From Siphonodentalium dalli (Eukaryota > Mollusca > Scaphopoda > Gadilida > Siphonodentaliidae), in the NCBI GenBank assembly GCA_032622095.1, contig CP136066.1, positions 199,726,978 to 199,790,977 of the forward strand: a DNA stretch of 64,000 nucleotides, written 5' to 3'. The position numbers were made by a program, and so were the translations under genes. The notes beneath the pieces are model-generated. The model saw only the letters and a list, made by a program, of their open reading frames with translations, ran no database searches and was not told the origin of the DNA. Of this stretch, positions 2,053-62,703 are shown in pieces; the stretch's first letter is position 1, and each line of letters begins with the position of its first letter.

Positions 2053-2355
2053 ATAAGGAGAACCAATTTGGTCTGCAGTCGAGTATATTTGTCGGGTCTA
2101 CCCAGAACTCCTCCTCGGTTGCCGGTCTATATCCGTCCGGACACGAGCATACACTCCCCTGACATATCCCGGGATAGTTACAGTTACTGGTATCCGTGCA
2201 CATTTCTCCGATTAAATGTTGAAACATCAGGCGACACCTACCATCACTGGTCGGTTCATAGAAAAAACCACACTTACAGCTACCCGATGTGCATGTCGCA
2301 TAACTCGACAGACACTTGGCACTCCCGGTACCACAGGGCTCGTCCGTCTTAGCAC
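2053..2355 (-). CDS. Gene 1 exon 3: two Cys-rich EB/EGF-like modules
   Basis: The exon is open for 101 codons between an acceptor ending TATATTGCAG and a strong donor GTAAGTATT. It is phase 1 at both ends. Module 1 has cysteines spaced 6-6-4-1-11 and includes KCGFFYEPTSDGRC. Module 2 has spacing 5-5-4-1-21 and ends CPDGYRPATEEEFWVDPTN. The GYRxAT...DP segment is shared with gene 2 exon 3 (GYREATSNELRMDP), which shows the two genes are paralogous. The spacing and the CxC-x2-GY pattern fit extracellular EB or EGF-like modules. The exon was bounded by splice sites, not by the internal Met at about 2227. It is the last exon of gene 1 in the window. Ligand and function are unknown. Confidence 0.72.
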
Positions 2356-2979
2356 CTGCAATATAGAAACACCCCTTACATCAGTTCAAGTCACGTGGCT
2401 ATATGAGCGCAAAAATACGCTTTTGACATTTTCCCGGCACCGAGATACATGTACATGTATGTCGATAAATACCATAATTACCTTTCTGCAAACATTATAT
2501 TTTCCAGAAAGACGCATTGAAGTCATAAAAAGTGCCTTTTCGAACACCATGTTCGGAATCCGAACACTTGTTACGCCCTTTATATTTATTGAAGTTCTGG
2601 AATCAGGAAACGGAATAATTAATTCGCGAATGTCCGGAAAATGCATATTGCGTTGTCAAGGTTTTCTTCCCCTGTCAAAAGGTGCTGGTCAACAACGTTT
2701 AATCGTCACAATCGGAACGATCTGAAAATTTCCGAAAAATATAAAGAAACACGTTTTTTTTTAGCGCGTTATCGGTTCGGAAATCTTCCGCGTATGTATA
2801 TATGTTTGAGATATCTTATACGTATGCATATTTGATTTTGTCGTTTGGGCGAACGATGTCTGTTTAATGATTTTTAATTTTTGAACACTACACACATGTA
2901 TACAACACTCCTAAAATGAGTTATCCCTCCTTTAACTGAATAATTTTTGCTGGATGGATGGATTTTACGGGATGATGTC

Positions 2980-3400
2980 TATGAAATTTACGGCTATACA
3001 TGTATATGGTTAAACTATGTACATAGAATCGTACACAGGTGAGAAGTAGCGTTGATTCGACACGAGTCTACAATTTCAACATATCCTCGAGCAGATAGGT
3101 TCATAATCGACCTATAATATTCTCCATAGGTTCATATTTGATTATTTGATTATGAAATAATCCGATAGTGGACGTATATCCGCTATTCCGTTTTATGGCG
3201 CGGGCCACAGTGAACACATATTTTAAAGTGTATACATCTGGTAAGTCGTGAGTTGGTTTACTCTTGTTATTGTCCGCCTATAGTAAACTTATATAATAAG
3301 CCATTATCAATCACTAATGGCGCTAAACACTCTCGTATTCAGCTCGTTATGGACTCAAAACGAGATGATACTACGCCGATTATGAACCTACCTAAACTTT
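2980..3400. repeat. Dispersed repeat R2 fragment
   Basis: It contains the R2 hallmarks seen many times in the window: palindromic AGGTTCATATGAACCT-like words, GGGCCACAGTGAACAC, and ACTTATACCCGTTATTCCG-type strings in degenerate form. Related copies lie at 10860-11850, 16990-17385, 19045-19440, 32150-32530, 34640-34780, 35310-35400 and 54380-54720. It has no coding potential. Confidence 0.45.
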
Positions 3401-3421
3401 AATTAATTTAATCCGTCATTT

Positions 3422-3846
3422 GTGACCCGCCATATCAAATCCAGTCGTAATTCGGGATTTTTTTTACCCTGTGCCAATGCATTCTCTTATATATGCGAGG
3501 CGACCTATTGGACTAACAATTTTTTATCATGTTTTTTAAATAAATGTTTCTTACAATTTTTAGGACATAAAATAAAAAACATCCATTACCCTGCAGGGAG
3601 CCCCACACATATATAGAAGCATATAGAAGAGTGTCGTCTGCTCATGTTTGTCTGGGGCTCTGTATGGGTGAAATTATAAAATTGTTAAAGAATACAAGAA
3701 AACATTAAAATTGTAAAAAATTGTTAGGCCAATGCATTCTCTTATATATGCGAGGCGACCTATGGCCGACTCGCATATATAAGAGAATGCATTGGCACAG
3801 GGTACAAAAATCCCGACTTACGACTGGATTTGATATGGCGGGTCAC
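3422..3846. mobile_element. Palindrome-core MITE, family V1, copy 1
   Basis: The terminal inverted repeats begin GTGACCCGCCATATCAAATC and extend about 45 bp. The flanks are ATTT on both sides (3418-3421 and 3847-3850), a likely 4-bp target duplication. Inside each terminal repeat is the shared core CCCTGTGCCAATGCATTCTC...; the right core (3727-3803) is a near-perfect palindrome and the left one (3464-3506) has lost its second arm. The centre contains a unique block (about 3587-3680) that recurs inverted in the V1 copy at 52270-52672. It encodes no protein. Confidence 0.7.
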
Positions 3847-3954
3847 ATTTGCATGAATGTAGAAGATAGAAGTAAAGCGAGCGATACACGATGTGATTGT
3901 TTCCGACCAGAACCACGATTTAAGTTGAAAATGACATGCGTTCAATAAGCCCTT

Positions 3955-4072
3955 CGTTATTGACTGGTTAGGTATAGCCACACCCATTTATCATTTGATT
4001 GGTTAGGTATAGCCACACCCATTCATCATTTGATTGGTTAGGTATAGCCACACCCATTCAGCATTTGATTGA
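3955..4072 (+). repeat. Short tandem repeat, ~35-bp unit, three copies
   Basis: The unit GATTGGTTAGGTATAGCCAC followed by ACCCATTCATCATTT is repeated three times with few changes. No gene overlaps it. Confidence 0.75.
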
Positions 4073-4587
4073 CTAGAGTCGAGCGATGACGCAATATGCT
4101 TTTCAAGTGGTCGTTGTACATGCATTGTACATATAGGTTACAGGACACCAATTATTGTCCATAGGCGACAGTGTTAACGTCCGGGGCTATGCTCGATTCC
4201 GTGTGAATTCAGGAACTTTCTAACGTAGTCAATTTTGAAGAATGGCTCTTCGGACCCAATTTGACCCAAACAAATTAATAGATACATGTGGGTTTTCCAC
4301 CTTTAAATTTACCGCTTTTGATACTGCCCTAATTTCGCAGAAAAATTCATCACCAAATTTTCAAACATACCCCCATTAACTGCCAGGTTAATTATTTCAC
4401 CCACTCTGTATCAATATTCATCTAGGTATAATATTTCCATGGTGGCTTTGATTTTTTCTTGTTTTTGCATTAATTTTATCCCAATCATAATCAACCATTC
4501 AGTAGCCAGATGTGATTTTATGCTGACTTGAGTGTGGGTGACAGCACACCAAAGTGGATATTTTTTTATAATTTGTGTACTATAAAG

Positions 4588-6516
4588 CCCCTGTCACACT
4601 CAGGCCGGCGCTCTCATTGCGCTGCAAAAGTATCAAAGCGCCCACCTAAACGCACTAAGGTCTCCAAGTACCGATTGGTGACGCAGTGGACACTGGCTAC
4701 AACGGCCGAGGATCTTCATGGTCCCCCATAGGTGCCAGAGCGCCGCGCTTGTTTTATGCATGCACAATACAAGCGCAGAGGCTCGGCGTTCTGACCAGGA
4801 CGTAGTACTGTCGCCGTGACGGCGCAAAGCAAAGCGCCAATCGAGCGACGTGAGCGTTATATGTACGTAGCAAGAGCGCATATTAGCTTCTCGTGGTCGC
4901 AGCAAGACATTAATCTTGTCTTTTGCGACTACAGTGAGCTTAATCAAATTATCCATACGTGCCTTTCCCGTCCTTAATACGCTCAATGAGGCTCTGTCCA
5001 AAACTTATTGCGCTCTTTCTGCGCTGTCATGGGGTGTTATGGACTGGTTCCCGCTCATAGAACGTCCACATTGTGCTGCCACTGCGACTCTGGCGCTCGC
5101 TCTACGCCCAATCGTTATACATGGCGTTCTTCCGGCGTTTACAGCAGGTTTACACTACGATCCCACTTTGAAATGCGGTCTGCTCATACCACTGTCACAC
5201 TCCGCTGCGATCAAGTTGGCATTTGCTTTGAGTTGAAAAAGTATCAAAATACGAGTAACGCACAGTGGAAGCGCGGAAAATTGTCAGAAATTTTTAATCT
5301 GTTAAAACAAGAGAACCAATGTCAGAAATGGTAACGCGCTCAAGATCATATATTATAAACCAAAGAATGTAATTGTAGAATATAAAATATATTGGTTTTG
5401 CGAATGACCAACTCAGAATTCCGTTAAATAACAATAACAACCAGCACCTAATTAACGAACCGGTGGTCGACTCGACCTCGCCGACCACAACCCCCCAGTG
5501 GGCTGCAGAAATTTCTTTCATTTGTAATACACATATAGTTTACCACAAACCAAAAATCAACGTTGATTAACACAATAAACGAAATTTAATTTCCCCAACT
5601 ACAAGCACCTTTTACGGGACTCGGCCTCCAGCTCGCAGTTTGACTTTTAAATATTCCCAAAAATTCCCATTCTATAAATAAAACTAATAAAACACCCATT
5701 GATAATGTCAGCCCGCACGCGAAACGAGAAACTCCCCACCAGTCATACATGCGGCGCGCGTGACAAGCTATGCCCCTATCCCGCTTATCACGGTTTCGCG
5801 CTCTTTTTACGACCCATTGCGTTCCTGCTTTGTCAAGTCTCACGCTCTCATACGCTCTCAATGCGTTTCATCCACGTCGTAAACGCTCTTAATGCGTTCA
5901 AGTCGTTGTCATTGCGTTGTTAGTACGCTTTGTGCTGTCATGGCGACGGTACTACGCCTGGTCAGAACGCCGAACCTCTGCGCTTGTTTTGTGCATGCAC
6001 AAAACAAGCGCGGCGCTCTGGCGCTCTGGGGCGATCACGGGGACCCTCTTCCGTCCTAGCCAGTGTCCACTGCGTCACCAATACGTTCTTGAATACCTTA
6101 CTGCGCTTTGCTTGGCGCTTTGATTATTCTTCAGCGCAATGCAAGCGCAGGTCTGATCGCAGAGGAGTGTGACAGTAGTTTAATCGGACAGCTAATCTAT
6201 TGCGGGGTGTTAGGTATTTTCCCCACAACTTAAAAACTGACTATGACTGGAGAACGCAGGAGGCGCTATCTATACTTTCCGCGCCCGCGCAGAGAACGTT
6301 TTGCGAACTTATTGAGAACGTACTAGCATCATGCATAATGACAGCGACTTGAACGCACTAAGAGCGCGAGACTTGACAAAGTAGGAACGCAATAGGAGCA
6401 TACTTTGTTTTAAAAGTTTGACAATTTTCGACAGTTTTCGGCGCTCCTCCTGCGTGTTACTCATATGTTGGTACTTTTGCAGCGCCGTGAGAGCGCCGGC
6501 CTGAGTGTGACAGGGG
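4588..6516. mobile_element. 1.9-kb fold-back DNA element with nested inner repeat
   Basis: The ends are inverted copies beginning CCCCTGTCACACTCAGGCCG and extending at least 50 bp, including the GCGCTCTCA and TGCAAAAGTA words. Left and right internal parts are also inverted copies of each other (for example 4731-4830 against 5925-6035). A second pair of ends, CACTGTCACACTCCGCTGCG at about 5190 and its inverted partner ending at about 6178, lies inside, so one related element probably inserted into another. The short ORFs here have no recognisable domain. The superfamily is uncertain; the right flank includes TTAA. Confidence 0.62.
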
Positions 6517-7388
6517 TTTAACATTTAAGCTAGCGTTAGTTTCATTTCTTTGCAATTGTTAGCCCGAGCCCGGTTGATTGATATTGGTACTTATGCACCG
6601 AAGGCTAACAGTGCTGTTATTTCAAGGGCAGTCATAACCAAAGGAATTCAGACGCAACATCGAAATCTAGGTTGAAAGCGTAGAAAGTCGCAGATACGTC
6701 TAGTTTCTGGAATTCGTTTGATGAATAAAGTTGAAAATATTGAGCACAAACACACCGGGTGAATAAAAAAGATATTGGTGGCTTTGGAATGCCTTGTGGA
6801 ATATATGAGCATGTATAGGTTACGACATCGTGTTTAAGAACACTTTCGCGACAAGTTTAAAGTAAAGGTAAAGAAATGCGCTCTGATTGTCTGTAGCCTC
6901 ATTGAATTATGCGTCGCAAAGTAGAGTTGTCTCTCCTGTCTTGCAATCGAGCGACCTGCCGTCGACGTTGCTCAAGACTATAATTGTGAGATTATCGGTA
7001 ATAATTTCGTCCGAAAAGCTCTGTTTCAGGATATTTTTGATTTGATGGATCTTGTCTGATCTATAAACGAATTTTCATCACTGTCGATTCCGATGAATAT
7101 GTGAGGGACTCATTAAGATGTACACGTAACTCGTATTGCTCGAAAATATTCGATCGATTTCGCCGACTTAAATGTCAAATGAAAGAGATTGTATTGCCAA
7201 TAAAACACACACCGGGGGATAATTTGGCTGCACTTGTCGATTTCTAGAATTTGTAGGGTTTTGAAAGTTGGTGTGGTTTTAGCTAAAATCGATCATTGGA
7301 ACCTTTACACTGGTATAATCTATATTTGTATTTTAGTAATTTTCCCCAGGGTCCTATGCAATCTACATGCATTAGTAGATTATCTCAC

Positions 7389-7532
7389 CTTTATCGCACC
7401 CTGATCTGTCTGCTCTGGAAATAAAACCGACGTCACATAAACATGTTAGACCTTCGCATGCGTTTGGCTTACATGTTGCGTTCTGTGGACACGAAGGGTC
7501 TGTTGCACAATCGTTGAACACGTTTGTCGCAC
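7389..7532 (-). CDS. Gene 1 exon 2: single EB-like Cys-rich module
   Basis: The 144-nt exon is phase 1-1 between an acceptor TCATTCCAG and a donor GTGAGATAAT. It encodes about 48 residues with seven cysteines spaced 5-5-4-4-1-12. Gene 2 exon 2 (40191-40349) has spacing 5-7-4-4-1-12, a close match. Upstream it joins the hydrophobic leader exon in frame, giving a small-residue AGA site typical of signal-peptide cleavage. The module is expected to be extracellular and disulphide-bonded. No catalytic residues are seen. Confidence 0.7.
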
Positions 7533-7639
7533 CTGGAATGATGAACATTGTTTTGTGAAAAATGTGGACAATATTGTTGTTCGTGGAAGTCGGGGTTTTC
7601 TCATCAGAACCCAAAAGGCCCGGTTCGTCATCGCGAGCT

Positions 7640-7800
7640 TAAAGGTACATAATCCGATTAGATCGTCTCCATATCATCAGATGGTAACAACAACAACAAC
7701 AACAACAACAACAATATTTCTTCAAAGACGCTTTAGTTATCAGAATAAAAAAATAATGCTAACCACGGTCCAACCTAGTAATATGACCATACGCTAGCGT
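7640..7800 (+). repeat. Dispersed repeat with (CAA)n tract
   Basis: A (CAA)n run at about 7687-7713 is followed by TTTCTTCAAAGACGCTTTAG and AATAATGCTAACCAC. The same order recurs at 9925-10060 after another CAA-rich tract. Part of the left flank (AATCCGATCAGA words) recurs inverted near 10315. It is a repeat family of unknown type. Confidence 0.5.
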
Positions 7801-8049
7801 AATTAACGAACCACAGCTAAAACACATGCATAAGCTAGGATATATCTGTGTCTTTTTAATCCTAAAACTAAATTCATATAGATGCGTATTGCCATCAAAT
7901 AAGATTGACTTAGGCCTTATATCGTGGTGTGATTATGATATTTCGTGTATATATTAGGTCAATCATATCATACATCAAGGCATGTGAGAAATCAGAGATT
8001 CACAATGCAAGCCGACTACGAAGTTCGTATTACACACTCCGTCTTTCAG

Positions 8050-8161
8050 GAAGGGTCGTACCAGTGAAAGTCAACTTGAGTCTAATAAATCGAAAGACAA
8101 CGACCTCGGCAATAGTGTGTCGCCAAACGTGATTGAGCCAAAATCCAATGCCTACGTGTAA
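8050..8161 (+). CDS. Orphan copy of the cytoplasmic-tail exon
   Basis: This plus-strand exon begins after a CTTTCAG acceptor in phase 2 and runs open for 36 codons to a TAA embedded in GTGTAAGTG. It closely matches tail exon A of gene 2 (61240-61372), sharing SESQLES and EPK-NAYV, but has a 21-nt in-frame deletion. The similarity continues into the 3' flank (8162-8395 against 61373-61505 plus 62005-62095). It lies inside intron 2 of gene 1, on the other strand, with no visible plus-strand membrane exon before it. It may be a relic of a duplicated gene or the last exon of a gene entering from the left. Confidence 0.5.
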
Positions 8162-8396
8162 GTGAAATTACACTCACCATGTTGTCTCTGTTCAGACTAT
8201 TACTGTTTATATTTCAACCAAACAACTTTGTTATCAGGGTACTTGGTACTCATTTATTAAACGTAACATACACCCGAATACTTAGCTGTAAGTAAATCAT
8301 GTTATATATTTGTTGTATTACTTAATATCACAAAGGGTAACTTACTAATAATTAAATTTTAGAGTGTGTAGCCTGGTCCTGGACCATGTCTGGACC

Positions 8397-8577
8397 AGGG
8401 TTGGGGCGATTACATACCATTGTAATCGATTACGATTACAATTACTTTTGATTTACATGATTACGATTACGATTACTGATTACATTTTTTCCAATGTAAT
8501 CGATTACGATTACAATTACTTTAGTAAATGTAATCGATTACTTTTTGATTACATCTGATTACAATTGTTGGTTTCCA
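8397..8577 (+). repeat. GATTAC-rich repeat with hAT-like end
   Basis: A CAGGGTTGGGG word, as found at the ends of many hAT-type elements, is followed by about 160 bp of degenerate TAATCGATTACGATTACAAT repeats. It sits exactly where similarity to the 62-kb tail-exon flank stops, so it looks like an insertion. No partner end was found, so it could be a truncated element or a simple repeat. Confidence 0.45.
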
Positions 8578-9924
8578 ACCATTTTGATGGCATAGGAATA
8601 AATAATGAAATAATTCAAATTAACATGTCTAATACGATTGAATAAAGACATCACTGCATAACATGGAAACAAGAAACGACTGAAACAATAGAAAGATGCA
8701 AGCAAAAAACATAAAAACATTTTTTTTACATTTACATGTATTGGAAAGGTTTCATCATGACGTTATACACCAACTTATTGGGAATACATTATGTTTTATT
8801 TGTATTTATTTGTGTAAATAATTTTTAATATATTTTTAATTTTCTTACATGCATTCAAACGAACGCATAATATTTATGAAAATATCACCAGAAACAATTA
8901 TAAAATATTTGCATGTTCTGTTATGATTCAATACCCAACACAATGAAGATAACATTAAGATTTATTTGATGATCATCCGTTGTTAATCCTGATGAGGATT
9001 CAATTAGGCTTAACTCCATGGGTGCAGTAAATGACAAACCAGCTAATTAGGTCTACCGATGTACTTCACACCTTCTTTGTTCAGTTAATTAGCCCTATTG
9101 TACCAGTGTGACTTTACAGCCATTGTCTGCAGCAATCCCAATTCAATTTAATCTCAATTGAAGTTGGCTACCCTATTTATTCATATTAGAACATTTCATG
9201 TGTCTGTATCACAAGTTTATTGCTATTCATGCTGTATTCAACAAGTGTGTTGTTATCTGTGTCCACTGCCAGAATGTACATACACACTGTACCACTAACA
9301 TAAGACATGACTCTAATATGGTGTATGTATCTTTGCACACTCCATAGTACCACAGTATGAGACTATGAGTATCCAATAGCCATCCATATGGATATTTTAG
9401 TAGTACGAACTCACCCACTCAGACTTAAAACCTAAATAAAACACTTTTAAAAGCTATTCATTTTGAACAAATTATTATAGAATATAAATTATCAAAATCA
9501 AACTGAAAGTATTCAAAAGTCAAGACTGTTTGTTGTTGCCTAGATGGGGGTATTTTACAGAAATTAACCATTATACTATTGACGCTGCATGTGTGCGCAA
9601 TCCGAGTGAGATGTGTACTATAATAAGAAGCTTGTCGATAACGTGTATTCTATGTAAATATAAATATTTTGCCCCTGTAAGCCAGAAGACTCGTTTCGAA
9701 TAATGGACAACTACCAGTCCGTGTGTGAGAAACCAGTAACGTTGCCACACACAGTAAGGTGGTATGGTTATGTTTGTCGTGATTAATTTGTACTTGGCTT
9801 CATTGCTGCTGTATTGACTTACTGCGGCCATAGTCTGTCCGTCGCCACGCTTAGCGCGTTGTCTTCCACAAGATCCTTGTGTTACACAGCGGCGAATGAT
9901 TGTATTGTCGCTAAGAGATGGAAA

Positions 9925-10070
9925 CTTGAAGGCACTCAATCCGATCAGATGGTCCTCATACCATCAAGATACAACAACAACAGCAACAACAACATTTCTT
10001 CAAAATACGATTTAGTTATCAGAATCGATTTATTGCAACAAAATAATGCTAACCACTGTCAACTATGATA
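9925..10070 (+). repeat. Second copy of the (CAA)n-associated repeat
   Basis: It shares the order CAATCCGATCAGATGG, CAACAACAACA, TTTCTTCAAAATACGATTTA, ATAATGCTAACCACTG with 7640-7800. It has no coding signal. Confidence 0.5.
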
Positions 10071-11850: not shown

Positions 11851-12658
11851 TATCTATCATGTAACAATTAGGACCAGAATAAACTGGTTATTTCCAGATT
11901 ACAGGGCGCACTCAGTGTATAAAGCCTGTAGCAAACTTACAGAATTCACACTTAATGTGTCTACATTTGAAGGCGCTGTCCCAGTCAGGTCATTCAAAGT
12001 TGCATATAATATGCAAATACAAAATAATTCCGCATACAAAATGCACAAAATAGGCATATACTATACTGGTTCAAACTATGACTGATACCATTGCTCTAAT
12101 AAATTAGCAGCACAGGTCACCCGATCTAATTGAATGCATCTATAAATTCCGGGCTCAGAATAATCATTAAAGTGGCATGTAATATGCTGTATTATAAAAT
12201 TGGCACATATCGTGTACGACCATGGAAATGGTGCTACTGGCCTCGACATATCAGGCCATTCACATTTAAAATAGGCATATATTATGCCCATCTATGTATT
12301 ACGCCGTTCCCTGATGAAATTCCGCGTTATCACTATTATACTATAGTGAAAAAGTGAATCGAAACATATGATCAATCTATAGTATGACTATCCGAGCGAT
12401 GTAGGAACATGGAACACGGACCACTAATCTGTTGTTTGGTTGTTGGGTATATTTCACAATAAAAAAGTTCAAACATTTTGAAGGCGCTGTAACTGGCTCT
12501 AAAGTTAAAAAATATATGAAGTAACATCTCTTTCAAAATTCATGGAAAATATTAGGAACAATAGCTATTTTTTAGTGACCGAAGCTCCTGTTAACTCGTC
12601 TCTCTGTATCATTGTATCATTGTATTCATTTGAATCAACGGATAGTTCACGGCAGATA

Positions 12659-12873
12659 CAGTAATGCCCTAATTAATCGACTCCTTTAACCACAGCAGAA
12701 TTATGGGTAACTTTTCAGGATTTAGACGGAAATATGGCTTGTTGCCATTCATCGGAAAGCTCTCACCGAGAGCTTTCCAATGAATGGCAACAAGCCATAT
12801 TTCCGACTAAATCCTGAAAAGTTACCCATAATTCTGCTGTGGTCAAAGGAGTCGATTACTTAGGGCATTACTG
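12659..12873. mobile_element. Fold-back MITE H1, copy 1 (TA-flanked, mariner-like)
   Basis: It is an almost perfect hairpin of 215 bp: arms of about 105 bp beginning CAGTAATGCCCTAATTAATC and a loop near 12773-12781. It is flanked by TA on both sides. A sister copy is at 51692-51904. Terminal CAGTA...TACTG with TA duplication fits a Tc1/mariner-type MITE. A transcript would form a long double-stranded hairpin. Confidence 0.8.
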
Positions 12874-13357
12874 TATATGACATATTCGATTGCCGGACCT
12901 ATGGATGTCATTGTATTTAATGTTTATTATATGCGGTGACATTAGTGGACAAAACACCACAGCCAGATGGTAAGATAGGACGTTAATGCCTCAACGTGAA
13001 TTACACAACTAGTATGTAGTACACCAAACCACAGAATGAGGACGCTTCACTTAATAATTGAATGAATTTATAATTGTGACTAATTATCAGTGTGTATCCG
13101 TGTGAACTTTTGACAAAACTTGCTCAGCTTTGTAACAGGAAGTCGTTAGTTTTTTGGAGGAAATACAATGACATTTGAGTGTGTTTTCAGTTGCCATTTG
13201 TTCTAAATATAACTCCACGTATTTGGGTTGAAATTTACTGGAACAATTGCCCATATATAATTGAGATTTGACCATTGTTTTTCGTTGCACCGCATCCATT
13301 ATTTTTCTCAAGTGTTTCGGTCACGCGGTATATTAATATTAAGACCTGCGTACTCAC

Positions 13358-15280: not shown

Positions 15281-15287
15281 AATTAAA

Positions 15288-35568: not shown

Positions 35569-35620
35569 ATGATAAAGATAAAAGTGTTGCTTGCAATGAC
35601 CATATTCTACACTAACAGAG
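35569..35620 (+). CDS. Gene 2 exon 1 (coding): signal peptide
   Basis: An ATG directly follows a splice-acceptor-like GATTGTGTTACAG, so a 5' noncoding exon probably lies upstream. Seventeen codons give MIKIKVLLAMTIFYTNR, with a basic start and hydrophobic core, and the exon ends in phase 1 at an excellent donor GTAAGTATAC. Joined to 40191 it continues VSAQTALL, giving a V-S-A signal-peptidase site just before the first Cys-rich module. The phase match and the complete signal-peptide logic support this start. It targets the product to the secretory pathway. Confidence 0.68.
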
Positions 35621-39030: not shown

Positions 39031-40062
39031 ATGGCAACTCATAACAAACAAAAATATAAGAATAACAAGCCGCTAAGTTTCACTGATGCTGGGGTCTATC
39101 CTCAGTACTTGGTACTTGGTTTTGATACGAATTTCAAGAGACCTTCTGTGTTTCTAATCGAATATTCACGAAAATTTCAAGCTGACGCTCTTGTGGAATT
39201 AACATATATTGCGCAAACACCAGCGTTAATTACTCCTCACAAGAGGTTGTGCAGTAGCAGAGCTGTATTGAGAATTCGCGATATAGCTGATTGTTCTGAG
39301 GCAGATGTTGGTTGAGTTCGCATCACAGAGAGTTACATAAGTCCGCAGATTTACAAAAACAGTTGATGGATAACAGGTTCCTGTGAATAGTTATCATCTG
39401 ACATTCAGTCTGAGCGAACATTCGCCGTCATTGAAGGTTGGGTATATTAACCCTTTACCCAACAGAACGGCCCTGTGCCAATGCATTATCTTATATATGC
39501 GAGTCGACCATAGGTCGCCTCGCATATATAAGATAATGCATTGGCTTAACACATTAAAAATTATAAACAATTTAAAGAATTTAAGAAAAAATGGTAAAAA
39601 GTGTTAAAAAAAGATTTTTTTTAGGCCAATATATTCTCTTATATATGCGAGGCGACCTATGGTCGACTCGCATATATAAGAGAATGCATTGGCACAGGGC
39701 ATAACTGTAACTATCACAATGTGGTCAAGGAGCCGGTTCCAATGATATCCATATTTGTATGGTTCTATTGAGACAGACCGAAGATATTTTAGGCTGTTGA
39801 AGCTTTATTTGGCCGGTTTTGGCCGGTTTGTTGGGTAAAGGGTTAATATATATGGGGATATGTTCCAACACATTGCGATGTTTTAAATGTCAGGGATATG
39901 GCCAAGGCCATGAACATTGTAAAAGTAAAGAAACCAGATGTGCACGATGTTCTATTTCTGATCATTATCATACGGATTGTACGAATCTTAAAATAACAAT
40001 TTCAAAATGTCAAGGTTCACATGCTGCAATAGATCGCTCATGTCCCATTTTGGGATTATGAT
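39031..40062 (+). pseudogene. LINE ORF1 fragment with zinc knuckles (Nimbus-like), split by MITE
   Basis: The left part (39031-39315) reads as the N-terminal region of a non-LTR ORF1: FLIEYSRKFQADALVELTYI and ITPHKRLCSSRAVLRIRDIA resemble the RNA-binding region of this family. Stops and a frameshift follow. At TTAA (39447) a 392-bp MITE interrupts it, and the reading resumes after 39847 with RCFKCQGYGQGHEHC, then CARCSISDHYH and a final CQGSHAAIDRSCPIL. These are CCHC-type zinc knuckles typical of LINE ORF1 proteins. No ORF2 follows. The copy is dead. Clade assignment (Nimb/I group) is tentative. Confidence 0.7.
39451..39842. mobile_element. TTAA-flanked MITE, family V3, copy 1
   Basis: It is flanked by TTAA (39447-39450 and 39843-39846). 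The ends begin CCCTTTACCCAACA. It is 392 bp. It has two core palindromes, at 39473-39545 and 39624-39697, in opposite orientation, separated by an AT-rich spacer. The right subterminal part holds GGCCGGTTTTGGCCGGTTTG. It inserted into the LINE ORF1 above, so it is younger than that LINE copy. CCC ends plus TTAA fit piggyBac-type mobilisation. Confidence 0.85.
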
Positions 40063-40190: not shown

Positions 40191-40349
40191 TATCAGCGCA
40201 AACAGCCCTCCTCACAGAATCTTGCGTAACTGTTGCGGATTGTGCGGCTCCTCCCAACGTTGTGTGCGTTGACAACCCATGTGGAGTGCTCGTGTGCACC
40301 TGTGATTCCGCCTACGTGAAGAACAGTAATAACACGGCTTGTCGGCCGT
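40191..40349 (+). CDS. Gene 2 exon 2: single EB-like Cys-rich module
   Basis: The 159-nt exon lies between acceptor GTCTTTTTCAG and donor GTAAGTATAT, phase 1-1. It encodes 53 residues with seven cysteines spaced 5-7-4-4-1-12 (TESCVTVADC ... CTCDSAYVKNSNNTAC). This matches gene 1 exon 2. The spacing and single-residue CxC fit EB or EGF-like extracellular modules. NNT is a potential N-glycosylation site. The in-frame ATG upstream at 40178 lies in the intron and is not used as the start here. Confidence 0.75.
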
Positions 40350-42017: not shown

Positions 42018-42385
42018 ACATTCCACTTATCATCCACATTCACCTTATCATCCACATTCACCTTATCATCCACATTCACCTTATCATCCACATTCACCTT
42101 ATCATCCACATTCACCTTATCATCCACATTCATCTTATCATCCACATTCACCGTATCATCCACATTCACATTATCATCCACATTCACCTTATCATCCACA
42201 TTCACCTTATCATCCACATTCACCTTATCATTCACATTCACCTTATCATCCACATTCACCTTATCATCCACATTCACCTTATCATCCACATTCATCTTAT
42301 CATCCACATTCACCGTATCATCCACATTCACATTATCATCCACATTCACCTTATCATCCACATTCCACTCATCACCCACATTCAC
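42018..42385. repeat. 18-bp minisatellite with 9-unit higher-order pattern
   Basis: About twenty units of ATCCACATTCACCTTATC occur in direct order. Variant units (CATCTTATC, CACCGTATC, CACATTATC) recur in the same order 162 bp apart, which is nine units, so the array has a higher-order repeat. The minus strand is open through the array (repeating Val-Asn-Val-Asp-Asp-Lys), but that follows from an 18-bp unit without a stop and is not taken as a gene. Confidence 0.9.
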
Positions 42386-43004
42386 CTTGAACACATGCAC
42401 ATTAATTGCAATCAACTTCACTCATCTGATTATTCATAACAACATTCACAATAATACGGTACTAATTTGAATAAAGTCATATGTATCTGAACGCTGTTTA
42501 ACAGTAGTCAATAATTGGTAATAGTAACATCAAATATTGTTTATTATATGACTTTCGCCTTTTATTGAGCTTCAGCTATTTCAAAATCCACCTGTACTTG
42601 TTGAGACAGAAGCGACCATGATCAAAATTGGTCGTCCTGCCAAGTCTGCGCTATTCTAACAAGGCGGAACATTCGATGTTCACATGAAAGAAATTGGAAA
42701 TCAACCCAAATGAGCCACTAATTAAAAGCCTTCTAAAATCTACGTTCAAACACAGAATGATACACTCAAAATCTGACTCCGTTTGAATTGTAAATCCATG
42801 TTTTGTGCAACACGTTGTATCGAGTTAAAACGTTTTTATGCTGTTTCAACATTCATCCTCGATATCATTCCTGACACGTTGAAAATGTCCAGGGATTGTA
42901 CTTGGAAGATAACGAACTTGCCGGTTAGGAGAATTTGCTGACAGTTGTCATGGCGAGTGAGTAGTTGGGTCTGATATATTTAATTTCAGGAAGCCCCTGT
43001 CGTG

Positions 43005-45172: not shown

Positions 45173-45460
45173 ATAAGCAATTGAGCGAGTCATGTGATGT
45201 CAATACAGTGTGCCCACCGGAAGCCACGTGCAAAAATTCCGTATGTACATGTGTCGAAGGATCGGGACCTATATGTGATGATAAGAATCGAGAGAAGTAC
45301 TTTAATAACACATGCAGCGCCTCAAGTATTTGCATAGCGACGTACCATCTGATATGTTCTGCGTCAACATGTACTTGTGCAACAGGGTACAGAGAAGCAA
45401 CGTCAAATGAACTGAGGATGGATCCACTGACTCCGTGTTATGTTGATGGAACGAGCGTAG
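45173..45460 (+). CDS. Gene 2 exon 3: two EB-like Cys-rich modules
   Basis: The exon of 288 nt lies between acceptor CTTCGTGTTTCAG and donor GTGAGTAGAT, phase 1-1. Module 1 (SESCDVNTVCPPEATC...) has cysteine spacing 5-5-4-1-7. Module 2 (NNTCSASSIC...) has spacing 5-7-4-1-19 and ends TGYREATSNELRMDPLTPC. Gene 1 exon 3 has the same two-module plan and the same GYRxAT...DP segment. NNT is a possible N-glycosylation site. The open frame extends upstream into the intron to 44830, but the acceptor at 45171-45172 and the phase fix the boundary. Extracellular, disulphide-rich. Confidence 0.75.
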
Positions 45461-48752: not shown

Positions 48753-48893
48753 TCTGTGCTACAAGTACTGCAACAGAATCAACTGCACCAACGACAACTA
48801 CACCAACGACAACAGGTTCCTCAGGAGCGACGAAAATAACCACCCCACCCCAGATAACGACGTCAGTTGCAACCGTCACAGATGAGAGATCGG
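48753..48893 (+). CDS. Gene 2 exon 4: Thr/Ser/Pro-rich stalk
   Basis: The 141-nt exon, phase 1-1, follows a pyrimidine-rich acceptor TTTTTGTGTGTCATTGGAG and ends at donor GTAAATACAC. It encodes 47 residues, about a third of them threonine (ATESTAPTTTTPTTTGSSGA). Such a segment is expected to be O-glycosylated and to act as an extended stalk between the EB modules and the membrane. It has one cysteine near its start. The donor is weaker than the others in this gene. The opposite-strand ORF here is a shadow. Confidence 0.65.
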
Positions 48894-50407: not shown

Positions 50408-50419
50408 TTATAATTTAAA

Positions 50420-51680: not shown

Positions 51681-51691
51681 CATGGTAGCTA

Positions 51692-51904
51692 CAGTAATGC
51701 CCTAATTAATCGACTCCATAACCACAACAGAATTATGGGTAATATTTCAGGATTTAGTCGGAAATATGGCTTGTTACCATTCATCGGAAAGCTCTCACTG
51801 AGAGCTTTCCGATGAATGGCAACAAGCCATATTTCCTTCTAAATCCTGAAAAATTACCCATAATTCTGCTGTGTTTATAGAGTCGATTAATTAGGGCATT
51901 ACTG
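51692..51904. mobile_element. Fold-back MITE H1, copy 2 (TA-flanked)
   Basis: It is the sister of 12659-12873: 213 bp, the same CAGTAATGCCCTAATTAATC end, the same loop region CTCTCACTGAGAG, flanked by TA. The arms differ by a few changes, so the copy is not brand new. Confidence 0.82.
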
Positions 51905-52269
51905 TATAACGAACATGAGTTTATGACTCGAGACTTGATGCTATTGCGCCACAACAAAAAATGCCATGGCTTCGAAACCAAAATCGCGAAAGTCTCCCCA
52001 ACATTTATACCCAGACTGATCGGTTCATGTTTGAACTATCACACTTGGCCAGATGCCTGATGAGAAACAATTAACACAAAAATACACCAAACGTACACCA
52101 AACATACACCAAACATACATGTCAGTTGGGTGAAATATGACATTCTTCTGTCTTACTCACCCGACCGTCAGCTTGATGCATTGATAAAGGTTCATGCGCG
52201 ATTCGTCAAATATTATGAATACCGTATCAATGCAAAATCTGAAGGTAAAACTACCTAACATACATGTAT

Positions 52270-52672: not shown

Positions 52673-52722
52673 ATATGTCGAAGTGAAGCCTTGGTAACTT
52701 CATGTTATATATTTACTACTAA

Positions 52723-53714: not shown

Positions 53715-53717
<3 letters not shown>

Positions 53718-53800
<83 letters not shown>

Positions 53801-53806
53801 TATAGA
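53718..53806. repeat. (TA)n microsatellite
   Basis: About 80 bp of alternating TA with a single interruption. It lies next to a T-rich stretch (53650-53690). Confidence 0.95.
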
Positions 53807-54720: not shown

Positions 54721-54849
54721 TGTTCAAGACATTTTGGAAGATGATAGATAACACAAGTGCAGAGATTCCTATGTATTGGATGGAAACATCAAGATAATAG
54801 GTTCAACAAAGTTAAACTGCCTGTGTGGACAATTGCTGCGGACGATTTC

Positions 54850-55935
54850 GATAGTAGTAGTTTATTGTTAACCTCCTCAATTTAGGAGAGCATATATACA
54901 GATGACAAATATATACATGTTATATACATATGCATGCAAATGTTATACTAATCACAATAGTAATCACAATATTAATCTTACAATATTTTAAGAGTTTTTA
55001 GAATTTGTATATCAGAATCTGTCATGTACTTGGCAATTTATTTTGATAACCGCGGCTTGACAGAAGTCAGACATATCTTAATTCGAATCTCTGTAATGGA
55101 ATGGCATTCCAATGGCATTGGCTGCGGACACACGTAGCACAGTAGTGATGGCATAGTAGGTGTGAAAATTTATAATGGTGGAAGTTGGTGACAATGTATC
55201 AATTGGACAATTGCAATAGCTAGCCATGTCGCCCACTTCGTATTCACCCAACAATTATACCAAGGTCTACCAGCGTCGCGGTCGATATATCAAGGATGTA
55301 TTTACCTGAGTGTCTTGTCGCTGTTGATATTTACTCAACACGCACACGTCGCCAAAAAAAACGCAATGGGGGAACTATCTTAATATAAGTAGATGAATTT
55401 GCATTGAGATCATATCAATAAAACGTACTACGTGCATGATATGTTAGTGAATGAGGGATTGCCACAGTCAAACACAATTATGGACGATCAATCGTGCAAT
55501 TATATATATCGTATATGTACAATGTAGCAAAACGTAATGAGTAGAGATCAACCTTGCTGAAAAGCAATGGGTTAATTGGTCCAGTCGACTCATTGTGCGG
55601 AAACTCACCGGGCAACATGGCTAGCTATGGTATAGTAATTATGACGACCACTTGTCACCAAACTCAACCATAATAAATTGTCACACCTACTATGCCATCG
55701 TTATTGTGGTACGTCTGTCCGCAGCCATTATTTGGACTGAACTACGTTCGTCAATGTTAACAAACTACGTTCGTCAATGTTAAAAAACTACGTTCGTCAA
55801 TGTTAACAAGCTAAGATAACATCGTCCCTTTCTCCATCAGCTTGTATGGTTTGACATTATCCTGTCACACATTTTGTTTGGATACATTGACATATAATCG
55901 TCTGCCTCTCAGGAAGTTCCTTAATCATTCTGTTT
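54850..55935. other. Intron, no gene seen
   Basis: It includes a threefold tandem ACTACGTTCGTCAATGTTAA (about 55741-55805) and an inverted pair around TGGCATAGTAGGTGTGA (55149) and TCACACCTACTATGCCA (55681). Otherwise it is unremarkable AT-rich intron. Confidence 0.45.
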
Positions 55936-55944
55936 TTTTTGCAG

Positions 55945-56050
55945 ACTTATTGGTTATTATTGTAACAACTGTGGTTGCCGCAGGGATTCTTGCATCGACA
56001 ATATGTATTATAATTGTCTGCAAAAAGAAAAATAGAGCAGCGTCAATGAA
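55945..56050 (+). CDS. Gene 2 exon 5: transmembrane helix
   Basis: The exon starts after CTGTTTTTTTTGCAG in phase 1 and ends at donor GTAAGTGTAT in phase 2. It encodes LLVIIVTTVVAAGILASTIC and on to IIIVC, a membrane helix of about 25 residues, followed by the basic stop-transfer KKKNR. With the N-terminal signal peptide this gives type I topology. The phase 2 end is the phase required by tail exons A and B. A cysteine at the cytoplasmic edge could be acylated (speculative). Confidence 0.72.
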
Positions 56051-56318
56051 GTAAGTGTATTATTTTACTGGCAGGCCGATCTGCAAAAACACTCCGTACA
56101 CGGTGCGCTGAATATTAAATTACGCCCAATCAGGAGACCCACACCCCACGTGCAAAAAATGTGTGTTTCATCCAACAAAATAGTGACCCACCCCTGTTCC
56201 CGTGATTTTTATTAACTTTTACTGTCTTTTTGCTTAAATGTTACAATTATGTAATGCCACCCAGTGTGGTCACACTTGTTCTTGCTCCTGCCTTTTCTTA
56301 TGTTTATGACTGTTATCC

Positions 56319-59300
56319 TTGATCTACAGTGTACATTTTTGGCTTAATGAAGGAGTTACTTGCGATGATTCTGGAAATGTGATTTTTGTGCAGAAATTCA
56401 TAAATATATTGGAACTATTGGACATTTTTCTGTGTAAAATACTGGTTATTTTCCTGTTTCTTCTGCTAAGTCATGGCTTGACACTAAGCTCTAATGACAT
56501 AACCCATTACTTGTTAACACCAGAAACAAAGTGCCTCTTAATCAGGATTAATGACGTGAGACATCTGACCTGTGAATCAACATGTCTAATAGCTTGTAGT
56601 AGACATCATTTTTCTCAGCCCACTGAAACAATGGGCTTGATTACATATACTCCTGAGGAGCTTCACACCTTCAATGAGACAATGGACCACCTATTACATC
56701 GACCAAAAGCTTCCATTTTCAAAACTATGAAGAAAAATCATATTCTGGACCCCGTGTTCTGTAACAGAAAGTCTAATTCATCTAAAGTATACAGGATTCC
56801 TCAGATTATTGGACATATACCTCGCGGTCCTAGATATTCAAGAAACAGAACCATAAATCATGACAATTTGATCTATCCAAAACTACAAACGACATTGTCA
56901 GTGATTATGGTGAATGCACGCTCTGTGAGAAACAAAACCAGCAAAGTCTTCAACTTGGTCACAGACAACCGCCCACATCTAGTTATCATAACTGAAACCT
57001 GGTTGTCTCTCTCAGGGGATGAACCCACCATTCAAGAGATAACTCCGCCAGGCTACAAGCTCCTCAACTCACCTCGCCGTACTTGAAAAGGTGGTGGTAT
57101 TGCCGTCATTGTCCGTGATGATATCCGTGCGTCGGAATCACAGTCACGGATTTCAAATCTTTCGAACTATTCGATGTCACAATTACTCTTTCTGGCCGTC
57201 CTGCATGTTTCCTCTGTGTGTATCGCCCCCCACCAAACAAAAAGAACAAGTTGACAGATGCACAATTCATTTCGGACTTTACTGAACTTCTAGACAGGTA
57301 TGTTTCCTACCATCGCCAGCTCGTTCTACTAGGAGACTTCAATTTCCATTATGACTCTAACACTGACAAGAATGTTGCAACCATAAAACATATACTTGGA
57401 GACTCGGGAATGGAACAGGTAATTTCTTCACCAACCCACCGCGACAAACACATTCTCGACTGGGTCATTACCAGAGACACTGATCCATCAATCGTGGAGC
57501 CAAAGGTCAGCGAGTTTCTTTTCTCTGATCACCATGTTATATCGTTCAAGATTAACGTTTCAAAAATGACATGCCCCATCAGGACAGTTACCTCGAGGAA
57601 CTTGAAAGCCATCAACCAGCTGAAACTCGCCGGTGAGATAATTTCAAGTTACTACGCTAGTCCAATGAGAACTCCCCTCGACTGGTACATGAACCTAACG
57701 ACTGTCCTCGATGCTCACACTCCTTTTAAGTCGCGTAAAATTCCGAACCGACCTTCGATTCCTTGGTTTACGGACGAAATTCGGGAGGCCAAAGCAGAAC
57801 GTCGCCAGGCTGAACGAATGTGGCGCAAGTCCCGCCTGGTAGTACATCGATAAATCTTCACCAGCAAGAGAAAAACTGTTGACAACATGACATCTAAAGC
57901 AAGAAAATCACACTATCAGGAGAAAATATCAAAATGCAAATCTTCAAAGATGTTGTATGCCATCACAAACGAACTGAGCGGCAAGAAATCCGAAGCTTTA
58001 CTTCCGACAAATATAAAGCAGCACAACCTACCAGATTCATTCGGTGAGTTCTTCTCCAAGAAAATCAAAGATATACACTCTGAATTAGATTCATCCAACC
58101 TTGAATCAGATTACGACACCTTCATGGGAGAAACTTTCTGTGAATTTCAACCTGTCACCAGCGATCAACTGAGAAGAATAATTCTTTCATCACCACCCAA
58201 GTCATGCCAGTTAGATCCACTCCCAACTAGTCTTATTATCAAACACATTGATGTCATGATCGAACCACTGACAAAACTGATAAATTCATCTCTTAAGGAA
58301 GGACAAGTGCTACCAAGTTTTAAAGAAGCGTTAGTCATTCCACTGATAAAAAAGAAGTCTTTGGATCCTAACGTACTCAAGAACTTCCGCCCAGTTTCAA
58401 ACCTGCAATTCATGTCAAAGATTTTGGAGAAGGCTGTTCTATTCCAACTGAAAAAGCACATTGACAACAATAACATGTGGGAGCCGTGTCAGTCCGCTTA
58501 TCGTGTTGGACACAGCACCGAGACAGCTCTGATTCAAATTACATCAGATCTACTGACAGCCAGCGATAAGGGTCAATTGTCTATTCTTTGTTTATTAGAT
58601 CTGAGTGCAGCTTTCGACACTTTGGGCCAACCACAGGATTCTCCTGCAACGACTCGAAAATTTCTTACAGCATCTCTGGCAATGTTTTGAAGTGGTTCGA
58701 GTCATATCTCACAAATCGTCAACAGACAATTCTCATCGGTAGTGAAAGTTCTGAACCCTACCCAATTGATTATGGTGTTCCACAGGGATATGTTCTTGGA
58801 CCTATTCTATATCTACTGTATACTAGGCCCATCGGTTCTCTTATTCGCTCCCAAGGAATTAATGTTCACGTGTATGCAGATGACACTCAATTATACCTCT
58901 CTGGTGATCCGAACGATGAAAGCAGTCTGGTTAGCAGAATCAGAAATTGTATTCTAATAGTCAAAGACTGGATGACTTTGAACCGCCTCAAGCTAAATGA
59001 CGACAAGACTGAAATCATCTGGATAGCACAACCATCAATAGTAAACAACGTGCGTACCACCAAGCTAGAACTGGGTGATAGTTCCATCGTCTTCTCGAAT
59101 AATGTGAAAAATCTGGGCGTCCATCTTGACCAGACTCTCTCCATGACGAAACAAATAGACTCTCTCTGTCCGTCCATATTTATTTAACTCCGCCGACTAG
59201 GACGAATTAGACAATACCTCACCACCGAAGCAGCGAAAAGACTGACAGTATCTTTTGTTCTATTGCAATGCACTGTTGTTCCGAGCCCCAGACTACCAGC

Positions 59301-59868
59301 TTCGGCGAATACAGCGTCTGCAAGACTGTGCTGCAAGAATCGTGTTTAGGTTGAAGAAAGGCAATAGTCCAACCACCATGAGATCACAACTACATTGGCT
59401 GCCTATTCAGGGTAGAATTTCTTTCAAAATTGCAACATTCGGATATAAACGTTTACAAAATTCAGAAACCGCCCCTACTTACATGAAAGAGCTCATTTCT
59501 CCTTATGTGCAAACAAGAAATGTTCGATCGAAGGATGCAGGCCTACTAACACCAAAAGGCGCCAACCTGAGAACTGTTGGAGATCGCGCATTTTGTGTTT
59601 CATGTCCGTTCACATGGAATTCCTTACCACAACCCATCAGAGAATCGCCATCATTCGGATAATTCAAATCAACACTGAAAACATATTTGTTCGAGCGGAG
59701 GTATCGAGACATTTTGAACCTTCAACGATGACATTCTGTACATTCTGTATATATCACTGCATTTTCTCTCTATATATTTGAACCAAATCATGTGAAGCGC
59801 CTACGGCCCATCATCACGGGGATAGGCGCTATACAAGAACAATTATTATTATTATTATTATAAACGCG
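56319..59868 (+). pseudogene. Decayed L2/CR1-like LINE: endonuclease and reverse transcriptase
   Basis: The apurinic-type endonuclease domain shows VNARSVRNK, ITETWL, YRPPPN, LLGDFNFH and SDHHVI in order (56900-57545). The RT follows: FRPVSNLQFMSKILEK, QSAYRVGHSTETAL, motif A LCLLDLSAAFDT, motif B YGVPQGYVLGPILY, catalytic YADDTQLY (about 58876), LKLNDDKTE and NLGVHLD. A conserved C-terminal region runs to about 59690. In-frame stops at 57084 and 57851 and frameshifts near 57150, 58620 and 59190 make it non-functional. The N-terminus carries a hydrophobic stretch (FLCKILVIFLFLLLS). The 3' end is GGGATAGGCGCTATACAAGA followed by (ATT)n. It lies in sense orientation between gene 2 exons 5 and 6. 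Confidence 0.9.
59849..59868 (+). repeat. (ATT)n tail of the LINE
   Basis: ATTATTATTATTATTATT directly follows the LINE 3' stem-like sequence. Short 3' repeats of this type are usual for L2/CR1-like elements and mark the insertion boundary. Confidence 0.8.
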
Positions 59869-60634
59869 TTCTAATTTGAGTATACTGTCTTATTGAAACC
59901 TTAAGTACTCATCATTGATGCCGTGAATACAAATATCTCAGTGATAGACTATTTGATAAAAATAAAGTTATTTTATCGTGAACTGTGTATATTATGGTGG
60001 AATGTACGTGTTTTATACGTATATAACCAAAGAAGTATTCGGTAAGCTATCTTGCTAATATTTAAAGATTTATTATCATTCCATGTCAAAGAAAGACAAC
60101 AGTTTTGGTCATTATGGTGGTGATGCACTTTCAGCACTCATTCCATTGATCTACTGACTGCATTTTTAGTTATTATGTGTACTTTCTCGAGTACAGGTTA
60201 TTGGACAACCTTTCTTGTGTTACTTATATATTCCAGACCCTTTATTAAGCAAAAGGGGCTTATTCATACCTGATAACGAAAACTAGTGATATGGTGATTG
60301 CTTCATTTGGAGTGAATGAAACGAAATGTTGTCTTCCAAACTCCTCACAAATAGTTTAAATCCGTGGTGAGGCCAACAAAACAAATATTGTCTTTTTCTG
60401 CACATCGACCAAGCCTAACTAAAGGAGCTCTTTTTCGCAAACAAGCCAACAGAAAAATAGATCGGCCCTACTAGTACTTCAGATACTTTTTCAAATATTA
60501 TACAAAGTAATATTTGTCGATATATTGGGCCAACAAATCGTGTTGCTTTCAAATGAATACCGAAACAGGTCATGTTGTGAAGCGTCCAACATTATTTTCC
60601 GAACGCTATGGGTGAGTGGTTGATATAATATTAT

Positions 60635-60774
60635 ATAGAGAGTAATCAATTGGTTCCGAGAATTTCGTTAAATAATTCACGAGAGGCGAGAGACGGCGGT
60701 GTCTTACCCAAAACGTCTCTCGCTTCGAGTGAATTATTTAACGTAATTCTCGGAACTAATTTATTACTCTATTT
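60635..60774. mobile_element. Fold-back MITE H7
   Basis: Arms of about 60 bp begin TAGAGAGTAATCAATTGGTT and include CGTTAAATAATTCACGAGAG; the loop is near 60697-60712. It is in the intron before tail exon A. Confidence 0.7.
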
Positions 60775-61239
60775 ATTACACTTCTGCATCAATTTGGTTC
60801 GGCAAATATGATTAAAACACACATAATTAATGTAAGAAAGTCCCGATGTGGAGAAAGACCAACCATCGAATATTCAGTCTAGATCATCACGGTAAGCGGC
60901 GTAACGCCAATGACGTCACGGGAAATGACATAATTTTAAATTTTTAATTAACCGCGTTTTCGATGGAAATCGCGCATAGGATTGTAATAAACTACAATAG
61001 TTGTGGCCTAGTGTATATTTCCCTGTGGCCATTTTTAGCTCAACTTGACGAAGCTAATTATCACTATGGCTGGTGACCAGTGCGTCCATCAACAATTTCC
61101 GTTATCACACCATACAGGTCACATCTCGTATCCGATTGTCACCAAACCGCATGCACTTTCGTGGTGACCTCTAATTTGTAATTAACCCGGTACACTCGGT
61201 ATAGAGCTACACATTACATATACATCCTCCGTTTTTCAG

Positions 61240-61372
61240 GAAGGGTCGTACCAGTGAAAGTCAACTTGAGTCTGATAAATCGAAAGACAACGATCTCGGC
61301 AATAGCGTGTCGCCATCAGCACGGATCGTGCAGCCAAACGTGATTGAACCAAAAACCAATGCCTACGTGTAA
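61240..61372 (+). CDS. Gene 2 exon 6: cytoplasmic tail A
   Basis: After acceptor CCGTTTTTCAG it starts in phase 2, matching exon 5, and reads 43 codons to a TAA: KGRTSESQLES, SPSARIVQPN and a C-terminal EPKTNAYV. The stop lies in GTGTAAGTG, so the same bases form a good splice donor (exon end 61368). If spliced there, the frame stays phase 2 and joins exon B perfectly. The tail is hydrophilic, rich in Ser, Asp and Lys. It is homologous to exon B and to the orphan copy at 8050. Confidence 0.68.
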
Positions 61373-61467
61373 GTGCAATTACACTCGCCATGTTGTCGCA
61401 GTTCAGACTATTACTGTTTATATTTCAACCAAACAACTTTGTTATCAGGGCCCCTTGGTACTCATTT

Positions 61468-61473
61468 ATTAAA
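61468..61473 (+). promoter_or_regulatory. Possible poly(A) signal ATTAAA after tail A
   Basis: ATTAAA lies 96 bp after the tail-A stop in a stretch conserved with the orphan exon flank (8256-8261). It could end the short transcript. Position and conservation only. Confidence 0.3.
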
Positions 61474-61847
61474 CGTAACATACAACCAAATACTTAGCTG
61501 TAAGCAATAGTAGTATTTTTGCATCAGATAAAAACCGTTATCCGTCTACACTCGTATCCATCCGCGCTAAAATTAAATGTGATTCGGTTTCTTGGAGGAA
61601 GACTGTGCTAAAAGTCCCTGAGTGTTCATGTTGAAAAAATTGTAATATGTGGTCAATTAAATGTTTCTGTTAAACATAATGATGTTAGCCTCTTTATCCC
61701 TCAACCAATCTGTCTGAAAATTGAACTATTTTATATGCACAAGCTCACTACCATGGCTGTGATTGGGTATACAATTTGTAAATTTTACTCTTCTTTCCAG
61801 CTGATCCATGGGTAAACTGAGCGGAGCATATAATAAACAGAACAATT

Positions 61848-61994
61848 ACACTTTTTGGTTGGATATGGTAATTATCTCATTCGTGATGACAAAAACAAAA
61901 TGAATTTCCACTCGTGGCAGAGCCACTAGTGGAAATTCATTTTTTGTTTGGTCATCACTCATGAGATAATTCCCATATCCAACAAAAAAGTGTA
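61848..61994. mobile_element. Fold-back MITE H8
   Basis: Arms of about 65 bp begin TACACTTTTTGGTTGGATAT; they close on CTCGTGGCAGAGCCACTAG. It lies in the ~500-bp stretch absent from the paralogous flank at 8300, between tail exons A and B. Confidence 0.75.
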
Positions 61995-62384
61995 GATATT
62001 CTCTATATATTTGTTGTATTAATTAATATCACAAAGTGTAACTTACTAATAATTAGATTTTAGAGTGTGTAGCTGATCCTGAACCATGTCTATACTAAAT
62101 ACGCATTGAAGAGCAGTTATCCCGTAGCAAATTGTCAACTAGGTCGTTTGTTTAAGTTATTATATGAACATTCCCCACCGATGAATATGATTACTTCTCC
62201 ATTTTATATTGTCTGTCTTCTGCGTATATTTTTTAAAACCCCCAATATGAATAACTTACTATTCCAGTGTATAGTTGTATTACTAGATAGGATAATCCAT
62301 TTAGTATATGAAGGGATAAATAGCCTGCACACACTCGTCACAGAGCGCTACATATCAGAACTAAACACTCCGTTTGTTTTTCAG

Positions 62385-62703
62385 GAAGGATCGTACCATT
62401 CAAAGTCAACTTGAGTCGAACAAATCGGAAAACATCGACCTCAGCAACAGTGTGTCTGCGTCAGCAAGGATTGTGCAGCCAAACTTAATTGCACATAAAT
62501 CGACTGCCTTCATTGTTTCCGGCCCAAACCGTGTAGGAATTTTGTATTCTGGTGATGACAGGAGTCATGGTCTCCTACCCGTGACAAGGTCCTCGGATTT
62601 AATTTGGAATCCTTATAAACTTAAAGGCGTCGACGGAACGTTATTCTACGAACAGAAACGTTGGCGAAGTGATTCCGTTCTTCACACTCAGAGGAATGGA
62701 TGA
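62385..62703 (+). CDS. Gene 2 exon 7: cytoplasmic tail B (terminal)
   Basis: After acceptor GTTTGTTTTTCAG it starts in phase 2 and reads 105 codons to TGA. The first ~40 residues (KDRTIQSQLES, SASARIVQPN) are homologous to tail A. Where A has its stop, B has GTT and continues for ~65 residues unlike A, ending SDSVLHTQRNG. It can replace A (both accept phase 2 from exon 5) or follow it through the overlapping donor. The extension contains GILYSGDD, with a possible Tyr phosphorylation site, but no known motif. The true acceptor is preferred over the ORF's upstream ATG at 62374. Confidence 0.62.

Follow-up and report, generated by a model that had tools for sequence, protein, structure and literature searches.

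Two related candidate genes for cysteine-rich cell-surface proteins lie head to head in a scaphopod genome

Introduction

What kind of gene is encoded by two sets of short cysteine-rich exons that lie on opposite strands of the same scaphopod contig, and how are the two sets related to each other? This question is raised by a stretch of 64,000 nucleotides from Siphonodentalium dalli (GenBank assembly GCA_032622095.1, contig CP136066.1, positions 199,726,978 to 199,790,977 of the forward strand), hereafter called the window and numbered from its first letter. A first-pass annotation had read the two sets as a divergent pair of paralogous EB-module membrane-protein genes, belonging to a receptor family that may be expanding. 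Here, we find that the window holds two related genes for animal cell-surface cysteine-rich proteins, gene 2 (plus strand) being nearly complete and gene 1 (minus strand) partial, and we consider it probable that they are two paralogous animal genes in a head-to-head arrangement, each encoding a single-pass (type I) surface protein.

Results

Gene 2 spans positions 35569-62703 of the plus strand and consists of seven exons that meet at phases 1, 1, 1, 1, 2, and 2 and, once joined, stay open over 397 codons with no internal stop. Read in order, they specify a leader, three EGF/EB-like modules, a threonine-rich stalk, one membrane helix, and a tail of 159 residues. The leader exon (35569-35620) brings an ATG and a phase-1 donor, and its product is hydrophobic by hydropathy, with a cut at VSA|Q that looks plausible by eye. 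It is followed by three phase 1-1 exons, namely a one-module exon with seven cysteines (40191-40349), a two-module exon (45173-45460), and a stalk exon with one cysteine (48753-48893), and then by a helix exon (55945-56050) that is entered in phase 1 and left in phase 2. Up to the helix, the stalk counts 18 threonines, 6 serines, and 4 prolines in 48 residues, and the helix, the only one in the chain, reaches a hydropathy of 2.54 over 19 residues before a basic CKKKNR flank. Stalk cysteine included, the ectodomain holds 20 cysteines, an even number. The coding part closes with two tail exons, called a (61240-61368, phase 2-2) and b (62385-62703, the last coding exon, with its stop codon at 62701-62703). 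The stalk, helix, and tail that had been added to gene 2 on first reading are thus all located, with compatible phases. Introns measure 1.0 to 7.1 kb, and splice sites were ranked by the percentage of all GTs or AGs on the strand that score as well under simple home-made matrices, which makes the ranks a rough guide. On this scale, the donors of gene 2 fall in the top 0.03 to 1.6% (leader 0.03%, stalk 1.49%, helix 0.42%) and most of its acceptors between the top 0.2% and the top 1.8% (0.18% at the helix), the two exceptions being the leader at 6.8% and the stalk at 27.9%.

Gene 1 runs the opposite way on the minus strand, and its leader lies 22.1 kb from that of gene 2 (13424 to 35569), in agreement with the distance of about 22 kb previously given for these exons, all of which are present. 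Its three exons, when joined, are open over 171 codons with no stop: a hydrophobic leader exon (13424-13358; acceptor ...ctctttcag in the top 3.38%, donor G|gtgagt in the top 0.30%), a phase 1-1 exon with one module of seven cysteines (7532-7389), and a phase 1-1 exon with two modules (2355-2053). Donors rank in the top 0.20 to 1.24%, and acceptors are weaker, in the top 3.4 to 12.8%. Both genes accordingly share the exon order of leader, one module, and two modules that had been described for them, and the phase 1 junctions hold up to the helix of gene 2, the junction from helix to tail being of phase 2.

Is this likeness more than a common wealth of cysteines? When the cysteines are held fixed and the rest is shuffled, the two-module exons of the two genes still resemble each other with a z of 6.31 (0 of 2000 shuffles) and the one-module exons with a z of 3.48 (4 of 2000). 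The two-module exons are the best shared exons, with 32% identity, and the last module of both genes carries the segment GYR.AT..E...DP...C. The cysteine spacing, which had been claimed to be shared, is alike across all three modules but not identical, being 5-5-4-4-1-12 versus 5-7-4-4-1-12 in module 1, 6-6-4-1-11 versus 5-5-4-1-7 in module 2, and 5-5-4-1-21 versus 5-7-4-1-19 in module 3; the seventh cysteine of module 1 stands in the same place in both genes (4-4-1 before the last loop). Taken from the letters of the two genes, the shuffle tests and the 32% identity support the paralogy proposed in the first-pass annotation.

As to the nature of the modules, both joined proteins pass the Pfam EB cut-off of 24.3 bits (gene 2 39.2, gene 1 31.6), and so do both two-module exons alone (34.6 and 29.8 bits, respectively); among the one-module exons alone, that of gene 1 stays under the cut-off (14.6 bits) and that of gene 2 gives no match. 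No EGF family rises above its cut-off in the exons or the joined proteins, the subthreshold scores including 16.9 of 29.3 bits (hEGF) and 17.1 of 27 bits (EGF_Mua-3) in module 1 of gene 1, and 13.9 of 26.6 bits (cEGF) in the scan of the joined proteins. The EB scores together with the exon phases bear out the idea of EB-like modules carried by phase-1 modular exons, and they carry out the comparison with EB and EGF models that had been proposed as a check. A loose six-cysteine pattern occurs six times in the window, always within the four module exons, when 60 first-order Markov controls give a mean of 0.05 and a maximum of 1. A profile built from the six modules reaches E < 0.1 only for the four module open reading frames (ORFs), a result that is circular for those four, and it finds no fifth module exon in the window at E < 0.1 (next best E 0.16). 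The best EB stretch of joined gene 2 (residues 55-101) begins in the one-module exon and crosses the junction into the two-module exon, because the exons cut the chain in EGF register, from C1 to C6. The Pfam EB unit has eight conserved cysteines; the exon units have six in the two-module exons and seven in module 1, and since the two kinds of unit are offset, these counts do not correspond one to one. What the exons carry are thus units in EGF register, and EB is a better name for the series than for any single exon.

The tail exon is present three times in the window, each time on the plus strand, which the first-pass annotation had overlooked. Exons a (61240) and b (62385) are a tandem duplicate, with 101 of 129 nucleotides identical (78%) over the first 129 nucleotides of b; both are entered in phase 2, and the donor of a overlaps an in-frame stop codon (GTG TAA GTG). 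Gene 2 can be read through a and b (397 amino acids), through b alone (354), or through a into the stop (292, ending in NAYV), which gives tails of 159, 116, and 54 residues (the last two by subtraction); tail isoforms are therefore possible. It is tenable, if somewhat doubtful, that only one of these exons belongs to gene 2 and that the other is a dead duplicate. Indeed, 15 of their 42 codons differ at the protein level and 7 silently, and the changes are spread over the codon positions (9, 7, and 11), hence no clear sign of constraint, but both exons are open and phase-compatible, with acceptors in the top 1% (0.79% for a and 0.54% for b).

Several points weigh against the reading of the window as two paralogous surface-protein genes. 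Both models are predicted from genomic sequence alone. The leader and the helix of gene 2 were chosen among hydrophobic candidates by their splice sites (the helix also by its phase): loose thresholds gave 20 candidate rows for the leader, from which the one with the strongest donor was picked, and the helix was taken from 12 hydrophobic plus-strand ORFs listed in 48.9-62.4 kb, with three others scoring higher. The stalk has a poor acceptor, at least equaled by 27.9% of the strand's AGs, and the 159-residue tail holds neither NPxY nor YxxPhi, so that it suggests no named signaling route. The leaders of the two genes do not match each other in the window search. Compared crosswise, one-module and two-module exons give z values of 2.34 and 2.39 (49 and 45 of 2000 shuffles), and part of the likeness is therefore common to all modules, a background above which the like exons rise. 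For the two-module exon, a structure model built with two sequences is weak (predicted local distance difference test, pLDDT, 72.3; predicted template modeling score, pTM, 0.45), and a fold search of the PDB with it gave no match with E ≤ 0.001 among 105 (E ≤ 10), the best among the matches listed having an E of 0.40. Two of the four module exons each matched one solved structure (E 0.63 and 0.34), which we took as chance. Finally, gene 1 has neither a start codon nor a 3′ half within the window, and since its leader exon is devoid of an ATG, an upstream exon would be required.

This last point raises the possibility, which we regard as unlikely, that gene 1 represents a pseudogene, decayed or copied only in part, with three exons kept by chance and no working start or anchor. 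On the minus strand between 13.43 and 30 kb, a phase-0 donor scoring above 5 was found for a single ATG exon (24095-24051), which is otherwise unsupported; moreover, the remainder of the gene would fall past the window edge. However, the three exons are open when joined and their donors rank high, when a dead copy at this divergence would be expected to hold stops.

The third tail-exon copy (8050-8157, plus strand) lies in the intron of gene 1 between the leader and the one-module exon, antisense to gene 1. Besides a 21-nucleotide gap that keeps the frame, it is identical to exon a at 103 of 108 nucleotides, and the intron downstream was copied with it (129 of 138 and 83 of 88 nucleotides identical), the matching spans being 8031-8391 and 61221-62091, the latter being longer by some 500 bases, a palindromic stretch among them. 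Its divergence is similar in exon (5/108) and intron (9/138 and 5/88), as in an unconstrained copy, and its five codon differences from exon a (three silent, two not) are too few for a selection test. We take it for a probable stray copy: that it would be the end of a third gene of the family, reaching in across the left edge of the window and overlapping gene 1, is quite improbable, for although it keeps an acceptor (top 1.36%), a donor (top 1.57%), and the reading frame, positions 1-8050 of the plus strand give no match to the helix, stalk, or modules of gene 2 with E < 0.1 (five hydrophobic plus-strand ORFs being nonetheless listed there), no second tail part follows downstream (elsewhere, the end of exon b is matched with an E of 0.30 at best), and exon and intron diverge alike.

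With regard to its composition, the window has the look of eukaryotic DNA, with spliced genes and a G+C content mostly of 32-44% in 2-kb steps; a search for transfer RNAs (ARAGORN) and an Rfam search at the gathering cut-off both returned 0 matches. Short dispersed repeats are numerous, alongside one broken non-long terminal repeat (non-LTR) retrotransposon (about 56310-59662, plus strand, outer limits judged by eye) in the intron of gene 2 between helix and tail. Four of its ORF pieces were scanned: one matches Exo_endo_phos_2 (32.9 bits), two match RVT_1 (41.1 and 57.8 bits), and the first piece has no match. Another intron of gene 2 contains an 18-bp tandem repeat (42018-42388; 20.6 copies, 93% matches) that is open in all three plus frames and one minus frame. 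An ORF at 39801-40061 (plus strand) shows zinc-knuckle-like CX2C...H...C motifs, of a kind typical of retrotransposon ORF1, with no Pfam match above cut-off. A short palindromic repeat with the core CCAATGCATTCTCTTATATATGCGAG..., resembling a miniature inverted-repeat transposable element (MITE) and recorded as two families, of 12 and 13 copies, lies at 3720, 20659, 21417, 22171, 39469, 39617, 46874, 47022, 49425, 49641, 52313, 52570, 52761, and 53137; its 26-base core has 0 exact matches in viral, bacterial, and archaeal contig collections. Two near-perfect palindromes, at 12653-12879 (arms 96% complementary, 3 nucleotides between them) and 51690-51906 (94%, 1 nucleotide), are 91-93% copies of each other.

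Discussion

From an evolutionary perspective, the pair of genes is best read as the product of an old duplication, gene 1 and gene 2 being 32% identical in their best shared exon. A recent inverted duplication was rejected as the origin of the pair, since no module exon matched at the DNA level: at the thresholds used, the only DNA matches shared by the intergenic halves are taken for dispersed repeats, and those shared by the two gene spans are presumed dispersed repeats and the tail-exon segment. The suggestion that the family may be expanding finds no support for the ectodomain within the window, given this low identity and the lack of any further module exon with E < 0.1; judging from the sequence, the more recent copying concerns the tail exon, not the ectodomain modules. 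As for the claim of membrane proteins, an anchor is supported for gene 2, any equivalent in gene 1 lying outside the window, and the label "receptor", drawn from domain order alone, is putative.

Among known systems, EB-module proteins (PF01683) are similar in their serial cysteine-rich modules, both joined proteins scoring above the Pfam cut-off. In a study of Anisakis, putative proteins are reported to contain serial EB modules, three to five in number, and EB modules are described as often associated with Kunitz domains (PMC5763927). Unlike that association, no Kunitz domain is listed at E up to 1 in either joined protein. The present genes also depart from EB-module proteins in the membrane anchor, threonine-rich stalk, and long tail that gene 2 adds, and in exons cut in EGF register, with the best EB match lying across a junction. 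EGF-like repeat phagocytic receptors of the MEGF10/Draper/CED-1 kind combine a signal peptide and small cysteine-rich modules with a single helix and a tail that bears NPxY and YxxPhi motifs. Gene 2 resembles them in its leader, small cysteine-rich modules, single helix, and tail, but it differs from them in that its modules number just three, no EGF family exceeds its cut-off, and its tail has neither of the two motifs. A TMEM154 match in the scan of the joined proteins (20.3 bits, cut-off 30.3) was rejected as a generic likeness of stalk and helix.

Beyond these systems, a protein scan of viral contigs using one exon of gene 1 returned five pattern matches and no relative, and a scan of bacterial and archaeal genome contigs with the aligned two-module exons returned 84 pattern matches and no relative; the collections being viral, bacterial, and archaeal, these misses say nothing about the spread of the family in animals. 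In the literature on EB modules, the term itself appears in 13 papers, in several of them with an unrelated meaning; a mollusc query gave only a nematode study and a bivalve query none, subscription papers being mostly outside this coverage, so that the family is not thereby shown to be unpublished.

If gene 1 and gene 2 are indeed paralogous genes for type I surface proteins, a stalk that is likely O-glycosylated would hold their disulfide-rich modules away from the membrane, and these modules would bind a partner outside the cell; the tail would carry signaling or sorting information, and gene 1 would keep the same plan past the window edge. As for the seventh cysteine of module 1, it could form a bond with the single stalk cysteine or serve to join one chain to another. 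The pair would then have arisen by an old duplication with inversion, and a piece containing tail exon a would later have been copied into the intron of gene 1. More speculatively, and with rather little probability in our view, this could be a family of small EB/EGF-like surface receptors in which the tail is the source of diversity: a symmetrical phase-2 cytoplasmic exon, doubled in tandem and also carried with its splice sites into the intron of a paralogue, would allow one ectodomain to be joined to varied intracellular ends, among which would be the short form produced when the donor overlapping the stop codon is left unspliced.

Modular receptor genes with phase-1 exons are a common design in animals, and the kind of gene described here is ordinary: the pair is an example to which we could assign no name and for which a full model is available for gene 2. 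Its most unusual detail is the duplicated exon of the tail, the part of the protein on the cytoplasmic side, which provides a specific instance where tails might diversify.

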